DNA of 43,707 nt from a virus: positions 1 through 43,707 of IMG/VR virus record IMGVR_UViG_3300020446_000019. One strand, 5' to 3'. The position numbers were made by a program, and so were the translations under genes. The notes beneath the pieces were generated by a model. It was given only the letters and a program-made list of their open reading frames with translations. It had not been told where the DNA came from and did no database searches. Numbering within the stretch: the stretch's first letter is position 1; the number at the start of each line of letters is the position of its first letter. Positions 6,024 through 42,911 of this stretch are shown one piece after another.

Positions 6024-7535
6024 TTATGTTTTTAAAACACATTCAACTAATTTTTCTTCTTGTGAGTCATTACTTTCTAAAGCAATTCCAACTAATGCTG
6101 ATGTTTTTGTAACAGTACATACTCCATTTTCCCAGGCATATACTGGTTGTCCTTTTGTAACTGGTCCTTTAACTTTAACTGGTAGTCTTCCTTTTAATCC
6201 TATATATTGACCTTCAGCTTCGCTGTTCATCATAACTGCTGGATTTGTACTCACTACACCAATACACATATCGCTTGATTTGGCAGGACAAACTTCACTG
6301 TCATCATCAAGTGATACTGCAACCGCTGTACCAGGATCTAATTCATTAGGCGTGGTGTATTTTTCTGCAATGTCCGCATATCTTGCTCTTGATGCAGTAC
6401 CTGTAAAAACATTTGCTTTTATATTTCCACTAGAATCTCTTGCAGGAATTGTGCTTGGAGTTGCTTCTATATCTGCACTAAATGCTGATGAGCTTACCAT
6501 TAATGCAGTAGCTTGTGTTGCTGTTCCTGTAAATGTTGTAGCATGAACGTTATTCCATTTTTTGGTTGTATCACCTAAAACATATGCATTATCGATAAAT
6601 GGAAAGAATCCTGTTTGTCCTCCGTCATTATTTTCAATTCTTGCAATTTCTATTAGCCCAGAGCCTGCTGTATATGCTTGAAACTTTACTTCATTTCCTA
6701 TCAAATTAGAAACTGTGGCTTCATTACCATTTGTTACGTGTAATTGTAAGTCTAAACTATCTCCGATTTTTATACCAGCATCGTCTGCAATGTTAACTGA
6801 TTGTCCTGCGGCCGCGGCATTTATAAAATTAGATGATTCTAAACCATTTAATTTTAACGCATTAGAAGCAGTTCCCCAATATACTGGCACTACTGTATCA
6901 TCATCAGGTCCAGTTATTCCTGTTGAAGGTGTGCGTATTAAAGTTATTCCTTTTTTGATAACTGGAAAATGTCCTGGCACATCAAAAGATGTAAGAGTTG
7001 CAGGCTGTGTAGCACTTGGTGTGAATGTTGTATCACTTATTACATACAGTGGATTATTATCAACTAGAGCTAAAATACATGGCACTCCAACATCAGATGG
7101 TGTAGAATTGATATTTGTACTTAATAATTGTGTTGTACCGCTACCAGCACTTTGAGGTCCGACTAGTATAAATTCGTTTGTGCTTGTTCTTGCATAAAGC
7201 TGATTTGTATTACTACTATACCATAAATCTCCTTCAACAAGTCCTGCTGGTTCGGTGCTACTTACTTCTGCACCGCCTGCTGTTTTCCAAGCACTTCCTG
7301 TGTAATATTTTAATTTATTAACTGAACTATCAAACCAAACTTGTCCACTTATTGCTTTAGAAGGACTAGTGGATCCTGCAAAAGATTCAAGTAAGAACAA
7401 AAAGTTTTCATTTTGTGCTTCTCCATATCCACTATAATTTTTTCCGATTAATTTTAAATCAGTTGTATTGTCTACAGTACCATCTTCTAATGATAGTAAT
7501 TGGGTTCCACTAAACCTGTTAATTATGTATGCCAT
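6024..7535 (-). CDS. Tail fibre protein 3, shared anchor domain, chaperone-like C terminus
   Basis: A 503-residue fibre protein. Residues 1-135 are the anchor domain shared with the two upstream fibres (KLIGKNYSGYGEAQNENFLF, then GQVWFDSSVNKLKYYTG and EGDLWYSSNTNQLYAR). The middle is Thr/Ala/Gly-rich shaft-like sequence. The C-terminal 130 residues start with RARYADIAEKYTTPNELDPG and include CIGVVSTNPAVMM and GLKGRLPVKVKGPVTKGQPV. That recalls the intramolecular-chaperone (peptidase G2-like) domains that trimerise phage fibres and may be cleaved off; I hold this loosely. It has a good ribosome-binding site (GAGGAA) and its own late-type promoter upstream at 7561. The next gene downstream starts 22 bases after its stop. 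Confidence 0.75.
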   Translation of the reverse strand: MAYIINRFSGTQLLSLEDGTVDNTTDLKLIGKNYSGYGEAQNENFLFLLESFAGSTSPSKAISGQVWFDSSVNKLKYYTGSAWKTAGGAEVSSTEPAGLVEGDLWYSSNTNQLYARTSTNEFILVGPQSAGSGTTQLLSTNINSTPSDVGVPCILALVDNNPLYVISDTTFTPSATQPATLTSFDVPGHFPVIKKGITLIRTPSTGITGPDDDTVVPVYWGTASNALKLNGLESSNFINAAAAGQSVNIADDAGIKIGDSLDLQLHVTNGNEATVSNLIGNEVKFQAYTAGSGLIEIARIENNDGGQTGFFPFIDNAYVLGDTTKKWNNVHATTFTGTATQATALMVSSSAFSADIEATPSTIPARDSSGNIKANVFTGTASRARYADIAEKYTTPNELDPGTAVAVSLDDDSEVCPAKSSDMCIGVVSTNPAVMMNSEAEGQYIGLKGRLPVKVKGPVTKGQPVYAWENGVCTVTKTSALVGIALESNDSQEEKLVECVLKT

Positions 7536-7560
7536 CGATGTTCCTCAAGTTTTACTATTG

Positions 7561-7568
7561 TATTTATT
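7561..7568 (-). promoter_or_regulatory. Late promoter (AATAAATA) of fibre gene 3
   Basis: Minus strand reads AATAAATACAATAG, ending about 26 bases before the ATG at 7535, with GAGGAA as ribosome-binding site between. It matches the T4 late -10 box TATAAATA at 7 of 8 positions and shares the TAAATACA core with the other late sites in the window. Confidence 0.6.
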
Positions 7569-7571
7569 TGT

Positions 7572-9467
7572 TTAAGGAGTATATGTAGTTGTGACTTCAT
7601 GTGACCAAACCCCCGCTATAACTTTAAACTTCATTGTATATCTAGTGATATTGAATGTTGTTGATATTGGAACAGCTCCAACACTAACGTCTTGTATTAC
7701 ACTAACGTTTTGTGTACCACCGCTATCTACTGCAAGAAAGCTTTTGTTTAATTGACTATTAACATCAGCAGTATCTGTTCCTGTAACTGCTGTCGAACTT
7801 GCATGAATAAATGCAAGTGTTCCGTTTGGAATAGTTACTGGATTTACTAAAGATGTAAGTATTGCTTTTACATCATTATTGTCTGATGCACTACTACTTA
7901 CAGTAATTGTTAATCCTGTAACATCTAAACCAAAAACTAATGTTTTTGATCCTAGTTCGGTATCAACATATCCTTTTGTTGCAACTGTACTATCCGCATC
8001 TTCTGTTAATAATGGATTTTCTGATACTGCTCTTGCACTTACTGCTGTCGTAACATTTGTTATTTTCTGCTGTGTAATTAAATTTACTGCTCCTGCCGCA
8101 TTTATATCAATACCGTTTGTAGCATTTGTAATTCTATCACCGTCTATTGTAATATTATCAATCGTAATAGATGCTAAACTACCTATGTTAATCAAACCCG
8201 GTGCAGATGTAACTGTTGAACTAAGAGCTGTTTTAGTTAGCACAGTGTCTCCACCAATCATTAATTCACCATTGTCATCATCTATATTAATATTATCTTC
8301 TGTGGTCCATGCTTGCTTGGCTACCCTATAAGTCCATTTTATGCTTCCGCCTTGTGTTTCAATTAAAAGACCTGCATCGTCTACAAAATCACTTGTGCTA
8401 TCTAATAACGAACTATCGTCTGGTATTGCAAGTTGAATATTTTTATCTGCTACTCTTAAAGAAGTAACTGATTCATTTACAACTGTTCCTACAGTTAAAT
8501 TTCCTTCTATTCTTAAATCGCCAGAGAATCTTCCATCACCGTTAACATCTAGTGTTTTTGATGGAGTGACATTTAAAATACCTAATCTTTTGTTATCAGC
8601 GTCCCAATATTGTGCGGCATATGATCCTACACTATTTTTTAAACTTAATTTATAATTTGAACTTGTTATGTTATTGATTTGTTCAACTGTATCACCTGAT
8701 ACTTTTAACGTATGATCAGAATCATTACCAACTATTAATCCAAGATCATTATTTACGTGCAGTTTTCCTGCCATTGTATCGCCATTGGAATCAGTTGCAC
8801 TAACAAAATCATTTATTGTAAACGCTGTACCAAACTGATCTGTAATTGCTAATGCTTTATCTGCTATTCCTTCAGTAACAAAAGTACTATATGCACTGTT
8901 AATATTGATACCCATTCGTAAATTAGTAAATCCTGTTATTTCAGCACCTGGAGTAAAAGATTCTTTAGCTATAATTAAAATTGGAACTCCTGCAACAAAT
9001 AATTTTAAGATTGTTTTATCAAGTGCAAAATTATCTTTTACTGTTTCAACTTTAAATCCGCTTAATCCTTGTGATTTTGTATATACAGGACCAACAAGAA
9101 TCCACTCACTTCCTGTCCAATAATACATTTGATCTTTTGAACTATCGATCCATATATCACCTTCAATCTTTTCTAAAGGAGCTGTAGTAGATATTACACT
9201 ATTATCAGTACTTCTAAAAGTTACACCATCAAAAACTTTAAGTCTATTGTTTGTAGTATCAAACCATAATTGTCCTTTAATTGGCTTACTAGGAGCAGAT
9301 ACATTTGCAAAACTTTCTAAAAGTTTAATAAAGTTTTCATTTATAAATTCACCAAATCCTTGATAATTTTTTCCTATAAAAGTTAGTTCTGTACTAGTAT
9401 TATCAATTTTTCCATCAATTAATTCTGTAAGTAAAGTACCATCTGTTTTGTTCAGTCTATAACTCAT
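7572..9467 (-). CDS. Tail fibre protein 2, shared anchor domain
   Basis: A 631-residue fibre-like protein. The N-terminal 140 residues carry the common anchor (TFIGKNYQGFGEFINENF, GQLWFDTTNNRLKVFDG, EGDIWIDSSKDQMYYWTG, LVGPVY). A shaft follows with fibre-type strands such as KTLDVNGDGRFSGDLRIEGN and SITIDNITIDGDRITNATNG. The C-terminal 110 residues are a beta-rich tip without the tail-collar signature seen in fibre 1. The start overlaps the stop of fibre 1 by 4 bases (ATGA); a GGAG ribosome-binding site precedes it. The role, host recognition or baseplate appendage, follows from domain type and context. Confidence 0.8.
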   Translation of the reverse strand: MSYRLNKTDGTLLTELIDGKIDNTSTELTFIGKNYQGFGEFINENFIKLLESFANVSAPSKPIKGQLWFDTTNNRLKVFDGVTFRSTDNSVISTTAPLEKIEGDIWIDSSKDQMYYWTGSEWILVGPVYTKSQGLSGFKVETVKDNFALDKTILKLFVAGVPILIIAKESFTPGAEITGFTNLRMGININSAYSTFVTEGIADKALAITDQFGTAFTINDFVSATDSNGDTMAGKLHVNNDLGLIVGNDSDHTLKVSGDTVEQINNITSSNYKLSLKNSVGSYAAQYWDADNKRLGILNVTPSKTLDVNGDGRFSGDLRIEGNLTVGTVVNESVTSLRVADKNIQLAIPDDSSLLDSTSDFVDDAGLLIETQGGSIKWTYRVAKQAWTTEDNINIDDDNGELMIGGDTVLTKTALSSTVTSAPGLINIGSLASITIDNITIDGDRITNATNGIDINAAGAVNLITQQKITNVTTAVSARAVSENPLLTEDADSTVATKGYVDTELGSKTLVFGLDVTGLTITVSSSASDNNDVKAILTSLVNPVTIPNGTLAFIHASSTAVTGTDTADVNSQLNKSFLAVDSGGTQNVSVIQDVSVGAVPISTTFNITRYTMKFKVIAGVWSHEVTTTYTP

Positions 9468-40650: not shown

Positions 40651-41085
40651 ATGAGTTGGTTATATAAAGGTAAACAAGTAAACGAAATATCAAATGAATA
40701 CGAAGGATTTGTTTACTTAATAACAAACTTAACAAACAATCGCAAGTATGTAGGCAAAAAATTATCAAAGTTTAAAACTACAAAACCACCACTAAAAGGC
40801 AAAAAGAATAGACGCAGAGGTCACAAAGAATCAGATTGGCGTGACTATTGGGGAAGTTCAGACAAACTCAACGAAGATGTAGAGGCGTTAGGTCCAAAAA
40901 ATTTTACAAGAGAGATACTTTACTTTTGTAAATCTCGTGGTGAAATGTCATACTTAGAGGCAAAAGAACAATTTGACCGCCGTGTGTTAGAAACGGATGA
41001 ATATTACAATGGAATAATAAATGTGAGAGTAGGCGGTTCAAAGATTCTAAGAGAAAATTTAAAGGCACATCAGAACACTGTTTGA
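40651..41085 (+). CDS. GIY-YIG endonuclease, SegE-like
   Basis: A 144-residue protein with a GIY-YIG-type nuclease core: GFVYLITNLTNNRKYVGKKL (19-38) supplies the two strands (VYL and YVG variants). A Lys/Arg-rich loop GKKNRRRGHKE and DWRDYWGSS (62-70) follow, and YLEAKEQ near residue 98 is a candidate for the catalytic glutamate. It resembles the free-standing seg-type homing nucleases of T4-like phages more than intron-encoded enzymes, having no evident separate DNA-binding domain. It lies directly upstream of the candidate structured RNA and may cut DNA to spread this locus. The ribosome-binding site is weak (AAAG). Confidence 0.82.
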   Translation: MSWLYKGKQVNEISNEYEGFVYLITNLTNNRKYVGKKLSKFKTTKPPLKGKKNRRRGHKESDWRDYWGSSDKLNEDVEALGPKNFTREILYFCKSRGEMSYLEAKEQFDRRVLETDEYYNGIINVRVGGSKILRENLKAHQNTV

Positions 41086-41412
41086 TCGGGGTAGCTCGAT
41101 CCGTCAAGAAACTGCATGAAAGATTGCGGTTGGTGTGATGTTGTTCAACAAGGCTGTATGCTACGAAAACCCCTTAGCGATAGGAACGAAGCGGGGGATA
41201 GCAGAAAAAGTTGCGAAGCAAAAAAAAATTTTTGCAAAAATTTTTACTGCGATGTCGACGTAGGTTGGGAAAGGTCAGAGCCCAGTAGCAAAGTCAAACA
41301 CCTACTTCCGATCTCGGCCATGCTACTCGTATGAAGCTTGAGAAGATGGAACCTGTGTGATGGTTCCGTCTGACCAATTTATCTGTATGAAACGTAAGTG
41401 CTTCGCACTTAA
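41086..41412 (+). ncRNA. Candidate structured noncoding RNA (unknown class)
   Basis: No convincing gene lies in this gap. GC is about 45% over 41091-41380, against roughly 30% around it. Helices I can pair: 41084-41088/41097-41101; 41110-41115/41126-41131; 41159-41163/41199-41203 enclosing 41170-41173/41193-41196; 41260-41265/41300-41305 (GTAGGT/ACCTAC) enclosing 41266-41269/41281-41284; 41285-41290/41321-41326 (GTAGCA/TGCTAC); 41273-41278/41370-41375 (GGTCAG/CTGACC); 41346-41353/41362-41369 (ATGGAACC/GGTTCCGT). The GTAGCA helix interleaves with the GTAGGT helix, and GGTCAG sits in a hairpin loop pairing 92 bases away, so the 3' half would be pseudoknotted. Unpaired linkers are A-rich on the plus strand, which favours that strand as RNA. 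I could not match it to tRNA, tmRNA, RNase P RNA or a group I intron. Confidence 0.6.
41224..41245. repeat. Perfect 22-bp palindrome A5T5GCA5T5
   Basis: Five A, five T, GC, five A, five T: identical to its own reverse complement. It lies between the two halves of the candidate RNA. Preceding A residues and GC allow an alternative hairpin 41218-41224/41229-41235. It could be a linker, a protein-binding site with two phased A-tract bends, or part of a terminator; nothing decides between them. Confidence 0.7.
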
Positions 41413-41475: not shown

Positions 41476-41483
41476 TATAAATA
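41476..41483 (+). promoter_or_regulatory. Exact T4-type late promoter (TATAAATA)
   Basis: TATAAATACATACAT reads the full T4 late -10 octamer, 28 bases before the ATG at 41511. It is the only plus-strand late promoter I found and serves the 466-residue gene. Confidence 0.75.
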
Positions 41484-41510: not shown

Positions 41511-42911
41511 ATGAAGATATTACAAATTATAAGTGAGGAAATTGCAACAGGAACATCGGTTATAATTTCCGATACAAAGTCAACACGTAGAGGCTCTAGG
41601 ACATATAAGAAAACATATGTATGGAACGGAACTAATTGGACATTTAATGGTACTCCAGTTTCTGATGAGATTGCTAAAAAAATAAATGCTTCTGACACAG
41701 TTAAAAACATTAAAAAAGCCAACAAAACCACTGGCAAATTATCTATCAACAATGAATCTGTTACTTCACAGCAAGTAGGTAAGAACAAATTTGTTGTTAC
41801 CTTCAAAGACACTGATGGAAAAGTAAAGTCTGTTAGATTTACAGATCCAAAACTGGCCGCAGGATTTGCAAGTACAATAAGAAAAGGTTCTACTTTTGCA
41901 CAAGCAACAAATCTATTGCCCAAAGACAGTTTTAAAGTTTTAAATTTTGGAAAAAAATGGGCCAGTATGATTACAGGTGCGGCAATGTCAAAAGAACAAA
42001 TTGACCGTTACATTCAAAAAATTAAAAATAATCCTAAGGCTCCTGGTGCTCAAAGATTTCTAGCTATAATAAATGGACCTTATTGGTCTAGTCTTGCAAA
42101 ATTTGCTGGAATAGCAGGCTTTGGTGTTGTATTGTATCAAACATTTGTTATCAATTATGATATAGTGTCTAATACACCTTCTGAAGAGTTTGAAAACGGA
42201 GAAGAAGAAAAACAAAATCTACTAGATATAATTACTGGATTGTTTGTTTCTCAAGCTGTACTTGGTCTTGTGGCAATATTAAGATTAGCCAAAACAGGTA
42301 AAACATTTATTAATTTAATTAGAGCTCCTGTGCGAGCTATTCAAGCTGGAGCATTGGTAACAGGAGTTGGAACTGTACCTGCAATAATTACTTTCTTACT
42401 TTCTGAAACAGCATTTTTTATTGCTCTTACTGCACTTGCAAATCCAACTGTACAATTGAAACTGGCTGAATGGGTAGCAACTTGGTGGGCAGGCGGTATG
42501 TTTGCCTTCATAGGCGGTGTAACTGATGTTACTATGAAGACTTTGGATAGTCTTACCGATGGTGCTATAGGTGGAGATACATTAAGAGATGCAATAGGAT
42601 TCAAAAAAGGTGTTGCTAAAATGCCAGCAGGTACTGCTTGGGCATCTAGTGAATGGGCAAAGCTGGCTTTCCAAGATTTAATTTTTCCACCAGACATGAA
42701 TAAAATCAAAGTTCCATGGTTGATGCCTGCACAAAGAAAGACTGCAATATTTGATGCACTTGAGATGAAAGCACCGTCTTCTTCACAAGATGCTCAACCT
42801 ACTATAACACCTGCAACAGATCCATATGCTGAACCTGGCAGACCAGGAGGCATGAATACTCCGCCACCAGCACCTCCGCAAATAGATGTTGACCGTCCTG
42901 GTCCACAATAG
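41511..42911 (+). CDS. Late membrane-active or virion protein of unknown function
   Basis: A 466-residue protein. The N terminus (MKILQIISEEIATGTSVIIS) and first 190 residues are soluble, with Lys-rich DNA-binding-like composition (KNIKKANKTTGKLSINNESV). Four hydrophobic segments follow: about 194-215 (AGIAGFGVVLYQTFVI), 237-260 (ITGLFVSQAVLGLVAIL), 279-312 (a long one, possibly a helical hairpin) and 321-338 (WVATWWAGGMFAFIGGVT). The C terminus from about 425 is Pro-rich (MNTPPPAPPQIDVDRPGPQ). There is no signal peptide and no recognisable enzyme motif. The late promoter says it is made with virion proteins; a role as internal/ejected protein, or in lysis or membrane modification, is possible. 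It converges with the next gene, with stop codons abutting at 42911/42912. Confidence 0.75.
   Translation: MKILQIISEEIATGTSVIISDTKSTRRGSRTYKKTYVWNGTNWTFNGTPVSDEIAKKINASDTVKNIKKANKTTGKLSINNESVTSQQVGKNKFVVTFKDTDGKVKSVRFTDPKLAAGFASTIRKGSTFAQATNLLPKDSFKVLNFGKKWASMITGAAMSKEQIDRYIQKIKNNPKAPGAQRFLAIINGPYWSSLAKFAGIAGFGVVLYQTFVINYDIVSNTPSEEFENGEEEKQNLLDIITGLFVSQAVLGLVAILRLAKTGKTFINLIRAPVRAIQAGALVTGVGTVPAIITFLLSETAFFIALTALANPTVQLKLAEWVATWWAGGMFAFIGGVTDVTMKTLDSLTDGAIGGDTLRDAIGFKKGVAKMPAGTAWASSEWAKLAFQDLIFPPDMNKIKVPWLMPAQRKTAIFDALEMKAPSSSQDAQPTITPATDPYAEPGRPGGMNTPPPAPPQIDVDRPGPQ

Follow-up and report, generated by a model that had tools for sequence, protein, structure and literature searches.

What is encoded in the gap that separates a GIY-YIG nuclease gene from the next gene in a 43.7 kb fragment of a T4-like marine phage? 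The window, that is the whole stretch of 43,707 nucleotides that was analysed, carries homologues of gp47 and gp46 followed by a gene for a SegE-like GIY-YIG nuclease (40651-41085, + strand; PF19835, E 4.2e-34), which lies directly 5' of the RNA described here. A first-pass annotation of this DNA had pointed to a GC-rich gap of 425 bases, and both observations were confirmed: the GIY-YIG gene stops at 41085 and its downstream neighbour begins at 41511, while GC across 41086-41400 is 39-51%, compared with ~30-36% in the flanks. The leader contains an AGGCA motif ~20 nt 5' of the RNA (41063-41067, + strand), and the downstream gene is preceded by TATAAATA (41476-41483, + strand), a T4-type late promoter motif. 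No tRNA was found in the window.

The RNA and its fold

For the + strand of the gap the folding energy is -95.4 kcal/mol (z = -2.1), a value matched by 1 of 100 shuffles, and the fold of the - strand is unremarkable (z = -0.4). Folding energy by itself is weak evidence, and it is conservation that decides. Exact pattern searches of IMG/VR found a 23-mer from the gap in 17 contigs and a 22-mer in 73, and two other exact patterns gave at least 120 matches each; in all, the same RNA is present in well over 200 IMG/VR contigs. Most members are longer than that of the window, with a 5' part that begins near AACACATAAGGTTGGCGGGCCAG and a length of ~340-440 nt up to the 3' hairpin; the window holds a short form with another 5' domain.

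Covariation was read from long-form members, using an alignment (A1) of 39 diverse sequences and a 50-pair structure that includes a P3/P7 pseudoknot. Across these 39 sequences 95.5% of cells were paired, against 83.6% in shuffles, and two-sided changes were seen in 228 cells, against 71 after shuffling. The covariation score was 0.366, compared with 0.159 for shuffled alignments, and 0 of 500 shuffles reached 0.366; sliding the helix partners by 1-3 columns abolished the signal. An independent test, in which substitutions were reshuffled on the tree, likewise returned significant Watson-Crick pairs in several helices. The homologues with compensatory changes that the first-pass annotation had proposed looking for thus proved to be many. 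Taken together, these comparisons support about 12 helices, including one pseudoknot, and indicate that the structure is under selection and that this is a true structured RNA.

Homologue alignments place the whole RNA, a short form of what we call type A, from the GIY-YIG stop through the 3' hairpin (41084-41412, on the + strand, as are all parts given below). It opens with a 5' hairpin, GATCG...CGATC (41084-41101), which is kept in short-form homologues, followed by a variable 5' domain (41102-41150), identified by comparing short and long forms, in place of which long-form members have a domain of ~150-190 nt. The 5' strand of P3, TGCTAC (41159-41164), pairs with the 3' strand GTAGCA (41285-41290) to form a pseudoknot with P7; the P3 columns covary, with ~80-85% of cells paired and many two-sided changes, and column 220/444 is significant in the tree-based test. 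P4 is a hairpin with a near-invariant AGGAACGAAGC segment (41170-41197), in which C-G, U-A and G-C exchanges are seen in columns 224-227/251-254, and it is followed by a variable apical hairpin (41198-41252). P7 (helix 10) is formed by GTAGGT (41260-41265) and ACCTAC (41300-41305), with 99.6% of cells paired, and a hairpin TGGG...CCCA (41266-41284; helix 11), whose changes include a GC to AU exchange, lies within the pseudoknot.

The 3' domain is built around a direct repeat that the first-pass annotation had missed. Copy 1, GTATGAA, follows ACTC in a loop region (41329-41335), and copy 2, the identical GTATGAA, follows ATCT in the single-stranded 3' tail (41385-41391), 56 nt away. Between them stands the P9 hairpin, AGATGGAACC...GGTTCCGTCT (41344-41371; helix 12), which has 99.4% of cells paired and was found in 229 of 229 complete 3' domains. 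The RNA ends in a terminator-like hairpin with a poor T-run, TAAGTGC-TTC-GCACTTA (41395-41411), recognised in the sequence; homologues have a different hairpin at this position.

The interleaved helices drawn in the first-pass annotation were borne out in one half. The pairing 41260-41265/41300-41305 is P7, with its two-sided changes, but 41285-41290/41321-41326, which can be drawn in the window, is not conserved, its 3' side being missing from most homologues. In the conserved structure 41285-41290 pairs instead with 41159-41164, which gives a different pseudoknot, backed by covariation. The loop-to-3' pairing that had also been proposed, 41273-41278/41370-41375, involves positions that are nearly invariant across homologues. 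Conserved pairs of the window include 41159-41164/41285-41290, 41260-41265/41300-41305, 41266-41269/41281-41284 and 41344-41353/41362-41371. The interleaved P3/P7-like stems resemble those of group I introns; in introns, however, P8 lies between P3' and P7', whereas here a hairpin lies between P7 and P3'. We rejected a group I intron, since there is no Rfam match and the RNA sits between complete genes rather than inside a split gene.

In the alignment, the variable apical hairpin (41198-41252 in the window) behaves as a set of exchangeable cassettes. Some cassettes (for example ACGGTRTAGCGTA pairs and CGCGAAGCGG) are common to RNAs that otherwise differ, across type A and the type B described below (the window, L003, L013, L034, L051, L168 and L353), and in the loci scanned their 36, 15 and 8 matches all fell within the RNA.

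Distribution and genomic context of the family

The suggestion in the first-pass annotation that a new RNA class was plausible is supported by these homologues and by searches for known relatives. The proposed comparison with Rfam was run (Rfam 15) and matched no known class: the window gave no match at gathering thresholds, and permissive E-values returned only chance-level matches far below gathering scores; the long-form loci and type B were likewise without a match. GenBank phages, queried by blastn with the short form, a consensus, divergent members and type B, yielded no relative, and a description of this RNA was not found in the open-access literature. Among bacterial genomes there were two matches, PBPT01000016.1 and PBPT01000082.1 (L077 and L078), marine MAG contigs that carry the same phage genes and that, although binned as Candidatus Neomarinimicrobiota, are probably phage contigs within a MAG. 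The evidence is drawn from sequence, mostly of uncultured contigs, some of which may be chimeric at this conserved spot. We conclude that the gap almost certainly encodes a member of a previously undescribed family of structured RNAs of uncultured marine phages.

GOLLD and ROOL, the function of which is unknown, are likewise large, ornate and pseudoknotted phage RNAs (PMC12286853); the RNA described here differs from them in being shorter, in lying outside any tRNA island and in having no Rfam match at any threshold tried. With a retron or DGR RNA in mind, we looked for reverse transcriptase (PF00078), which was absent from 16 records, some of them fragments, while control genomes were positive.

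The usual gene order, in large T4-like marine phages, is gp47, gp46, GIY-YIG, RNA and late genes, and a GIY-YIG gene lies 5' of the RNA in 168 of the 169 loci with enough upstream sequence. This synteny is the point in favour of reading the RNA as a guide for the adjacent nuclease, with copy 1 of the repeat as guide and copy 2 as target. The exception among the 169, L096, belongs to a different type of tailed phage, which it shares with L085 and L283: the terminase large subunit is ~50% identical to Pelagibacter phage HTVC111P-like terminases, the portal is SPP1-like, and there is neither gp46 nor GIY-YIG. This is a small tailed phage unrelated to the large T4-like ones. L282 has gp46 and the RNA but lacks the nuclease gene, and phage Melnitz has a GIY-YIG protein 72% identical and no RNA. 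Because the RNA occurs without the nuclease and the nuclease without the RNA, the two are independent, so that the tie to GIY-YIG implied by the first-pass annotation comes down to synteny; with no sign of mobility either, a guide function is extremely improbable. A mobile GIY-YIG/RNA unit of the homing type was also rejected, given the fixed gp47-gp46-GIY-RNA order and the presence of the RNA alone in unrelated phages. The occurrence of the RNA in an unrelated tailed phage type indicates that it has moved between phage types.

A sample of 37 loci fetched through gp46, and thus chosen independently of the RNA, gave type A in 27 and type B in 8, the other 2 being cut off, so that every fully readable gp46-GIY-YIG locus in it (35) carries an RNA. 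Type B is a different structured RNA at the same site, found in loci whose gp46 is among the closest to that of the window (L349 at 7.4-7.9 kb, L351, L352 at 7440-7880, L353, L357, L360, L362 and L363). Its core looks unrelated to that of type A, and it keeps ACTC-N7 ... ATCT-N7, with N7 = GAATAAT; in L362 the 5' domain is one common to short type A members.

Arrays of AGGCA, confined to the strand with the sense of the RNA, are found just 5' of it in phages of two unrelated types (leaders of L085, L096, L283, L127, L138, L232, L080 and L168, with the motif at 41063-41067 in the window). Counted over the 160 nt that precede each of 91 long-form RNAs, AGGCA was seen 235 times, against 27.6 expected; no genome-wide excess was found, the enrichment being local, before the RNA.

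The twin 7-mer

The twin 7-mer is the most informative feature of this RNA. The two copies are identical within 212 of 216 loci, a figure free of exact-match bias, with 13 different words overall, from ACATGAA (159 loci) to GCCAAAT, and they are identical in 26 of 26 loci of the gp46-fetched sample. On the tree the word changed at least 22 times, both copies in concert in the sequences compared. The three positions 5' of the word are never equal (CTC versus TCT), and the position 3' of it is equal in 39%; the border of identity is sharp, at exactly 7 nt. As the test of concerted change located copies by exact match, the 7 positions are equal by selection there, and the borders are unbiased. 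In the RNA, copy 1 is set in the context CUC-N7 in a loop and copy 2 in the context UCU-N7 in the 3' tail. Searching 8.5 Mb with the rule CTC-N7-gap-TCT-same N7 gave ~270 matches, all but one stray of which lie within these RNA genes, and the same rule picks up 8 of 8 type B RNAs.

What does the word pair with? Within the RNA, mutual information and an offset scan found no complementary position that covaries with it, and counts in the flanks show no excess of the word or of its complement. At places that can be aligned pairwise in other genomes, only the two copies themselves follow the word. Translation starts in 112 gene families contain 1 complement of their own word, compared with 2.7 expected from other words, and hence no excess.

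A further constraint comes from contigs that avoid CATG (0 seen, against 15-43 expected). Their words are without CATG, both copies having been altered, and the CATG was lost in three ways, giving ACGTGAA, ACATAAA and ACAGAAA; CATG avoidance was seen in 0 of 155 contigs that carry ACATGAA. Since both copies lost CATG together, and in three ways, it is equality that matters and not sequence. A fixed outside partner is disfavoured, because such CATG-forced joint changes would then be disallowed. These comparisons show that the copies must equal each other and that the word is otherwise free.

Several phages show a strong, phage-specific loss of restriction-type tetramers (G001, G004, G006, G007, G008, G009 and G013, the records of L053, L148, L161, L196, L132, L153 and L283, respectively), with seen/expected counts of 2/333 for GTAC, 0/93 for CATG, 0/178 for CTAG, 0/112 for AGCT and 59/293 for AATT. 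G004 has no CATG over its first 100 kb and then, from the repeats of the RNA onward (~100.3 kb), has 8, a normal frequency; its word is ACATGAA. This contig is probably a chimera whose parts meet at the conserved RNA, the alternative being a recombination joint exactly there, and it was left out of the CATG-avoidance argument.

These data bear on three other readings of the repeat. If this were a small RNA that acts in trans, its two identical 7-nt seeds, in loop and tail, both binding one target in an RNA of phage or host, the exposed positions, the length of exactly 7 nt and the sharp border would all be seed-like, and regulatory RNAs with two equal seeds are known. There is, however, no conserved complement at orthologous places or translation starts, and each of the at least 22 word changes, including those forced by CATG, would need a matching change in the target. 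We consider this reading unlikely, if by no means far-fetched.

Identity combined with free sequence is also the hallmark of overlap regions in site-specific recombination, such as the 7-bp overlap of lambda Int, and the 7-mers could be an exchange region of this kind, for which identity matters and sequence does not. Yet the expected deletion product was found in 0 of 229 complete 3' domains (3 of the 229 were at first flagged as deletions and differ only by a base change within P9), a spacing of 56 bp is very short, and the RNA fold is conserved, which makes recombination a very unlikely explanation.

A purely architectural, cage-forming RNA, in which a neighbouring molecule or a protein docks the twin word twice with one and the same surface, would suit an RNA that is large, ornate, pseudoknotted and phage-borne like ROOL and GOLLD (PMC12286853). 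A docking surface that tracks at least 13 words is nevertheless hard to imagine, and no complementary site within the RNA covaries; we regard an architectural role as quite improbable.

A proposed R-loop at the RNA's own gene

The only complement that automatically tracks every change of the word is the template strand at the RNA gene itself, and it is for this reason that we propose an R-loop. In its general form, the proposal is that this would be a self-address RNA, which would use its internal 7-nt word to find the gene that encodes it, or a strand copied from that gene, at the site of the 3' copy, the rule being kept while the whole core is swapped (type A and type B) and while the RNA moves between unrelated phages; we hold this reading to be close to evenly balanced between right and wrong. 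In the mechanism that we have in mind, the fold of the transcript would expose copy 1 as RNA polymerase passes the 3' end, and copy 1 could then pair with the template DNA strand at copy 2. The transcript would thereby be locked to its own gene as a persistent R-loop, aided by AT-rich DNA and by the hairpin just downstream, and this R-loop may prime replication of the phage, or open the DNA for it or for recombination-dependent replication. Such a mechanism, resembling ColE1 RNA II or T4 origins, in which we infer R-loop, priming and replication alike, is put forward tentatively, as one that is somewhat more apt to be wrong than right.

In ColE1 RNA II, the pairing stretches lie at positions of about -265 and -20. 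The persistent hybrid from which ColE1 replication is primed requires pairing between a stretch of rG in the transcript and a stretch of dC in the template (PMC4412123, PMC5043065). The likeness lies in a long structured transcript with an internal stretch that matches a 3' stretch and pairs with the template there (PMC4412123, PMC5043065); here, equality of the internal and 3' stretches was found in 212 of 216 loci, through at least 22 concerted changes. The differences are that the present RNA belongs to a phage and not a plasmid, that its 7-mers are AT-rich, that a hairpin follows directly after copy 2 and that no antisense RNA I was seen. No sequence relation to RNA II was found in the Rfam search, among the models of which RNA II may not be included. 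T4 origins combine a promoter with an R-loop region, and priming occurs from R-loops (PMC4412123, PMC5043065). The phages studied here are T4-like, and oriF and oriG of T4 consist of an R-loop at a promoter plus an unwinding element (PMC4412123); those origins, however, have no known requirement for a conserved structured RNA or for a twin word, and an origin role here is a prediction.

Several features of the loci fit an R-loop, among them a single RNA copy per genome and a T4-like gene content; the DNA downstream of the RNA is AT-rich. A sigma70-like promoter (TTGACA, ~17 nt, TATAMT) lies 5' of the RNA in L127, L138 and L232 only, and this promoter and the AGGCA array would weakly favour an R-loop origin. 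Other features point the other way. As 7-mers rich in A/T, the words are less strong than the G/C stretch of ColE1; a simple hybrid predicts neither the sharp limit of 7 nt nor the conserved, unequal flanks (CUC versus UCU); and copy 2 is followed by a terminator-like hairpin, in contrast to RNA II, the transcription of which continues. In seven genomes the minimum of the cumulative GC skew lies ~5 kb upstream of the RNA, where it coincides with a switch in gene direction. GC skew, examined at third codon positions as well, was set aside as evidence for an origin, being confounded by gene direction.

The family adds to marine viruses an abundant class of RNA that had not been listed. A twin 7-mer of free sequence is a signature that evolution rarely leaves, and the mechanism behind it can be tested directly by small swaps. 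If the R-loop primer proves true, it would show by what means the large, uncultured phages of the T4 type may initiate their replication, and it would link the primer RNAs of the plasmid type to phages.
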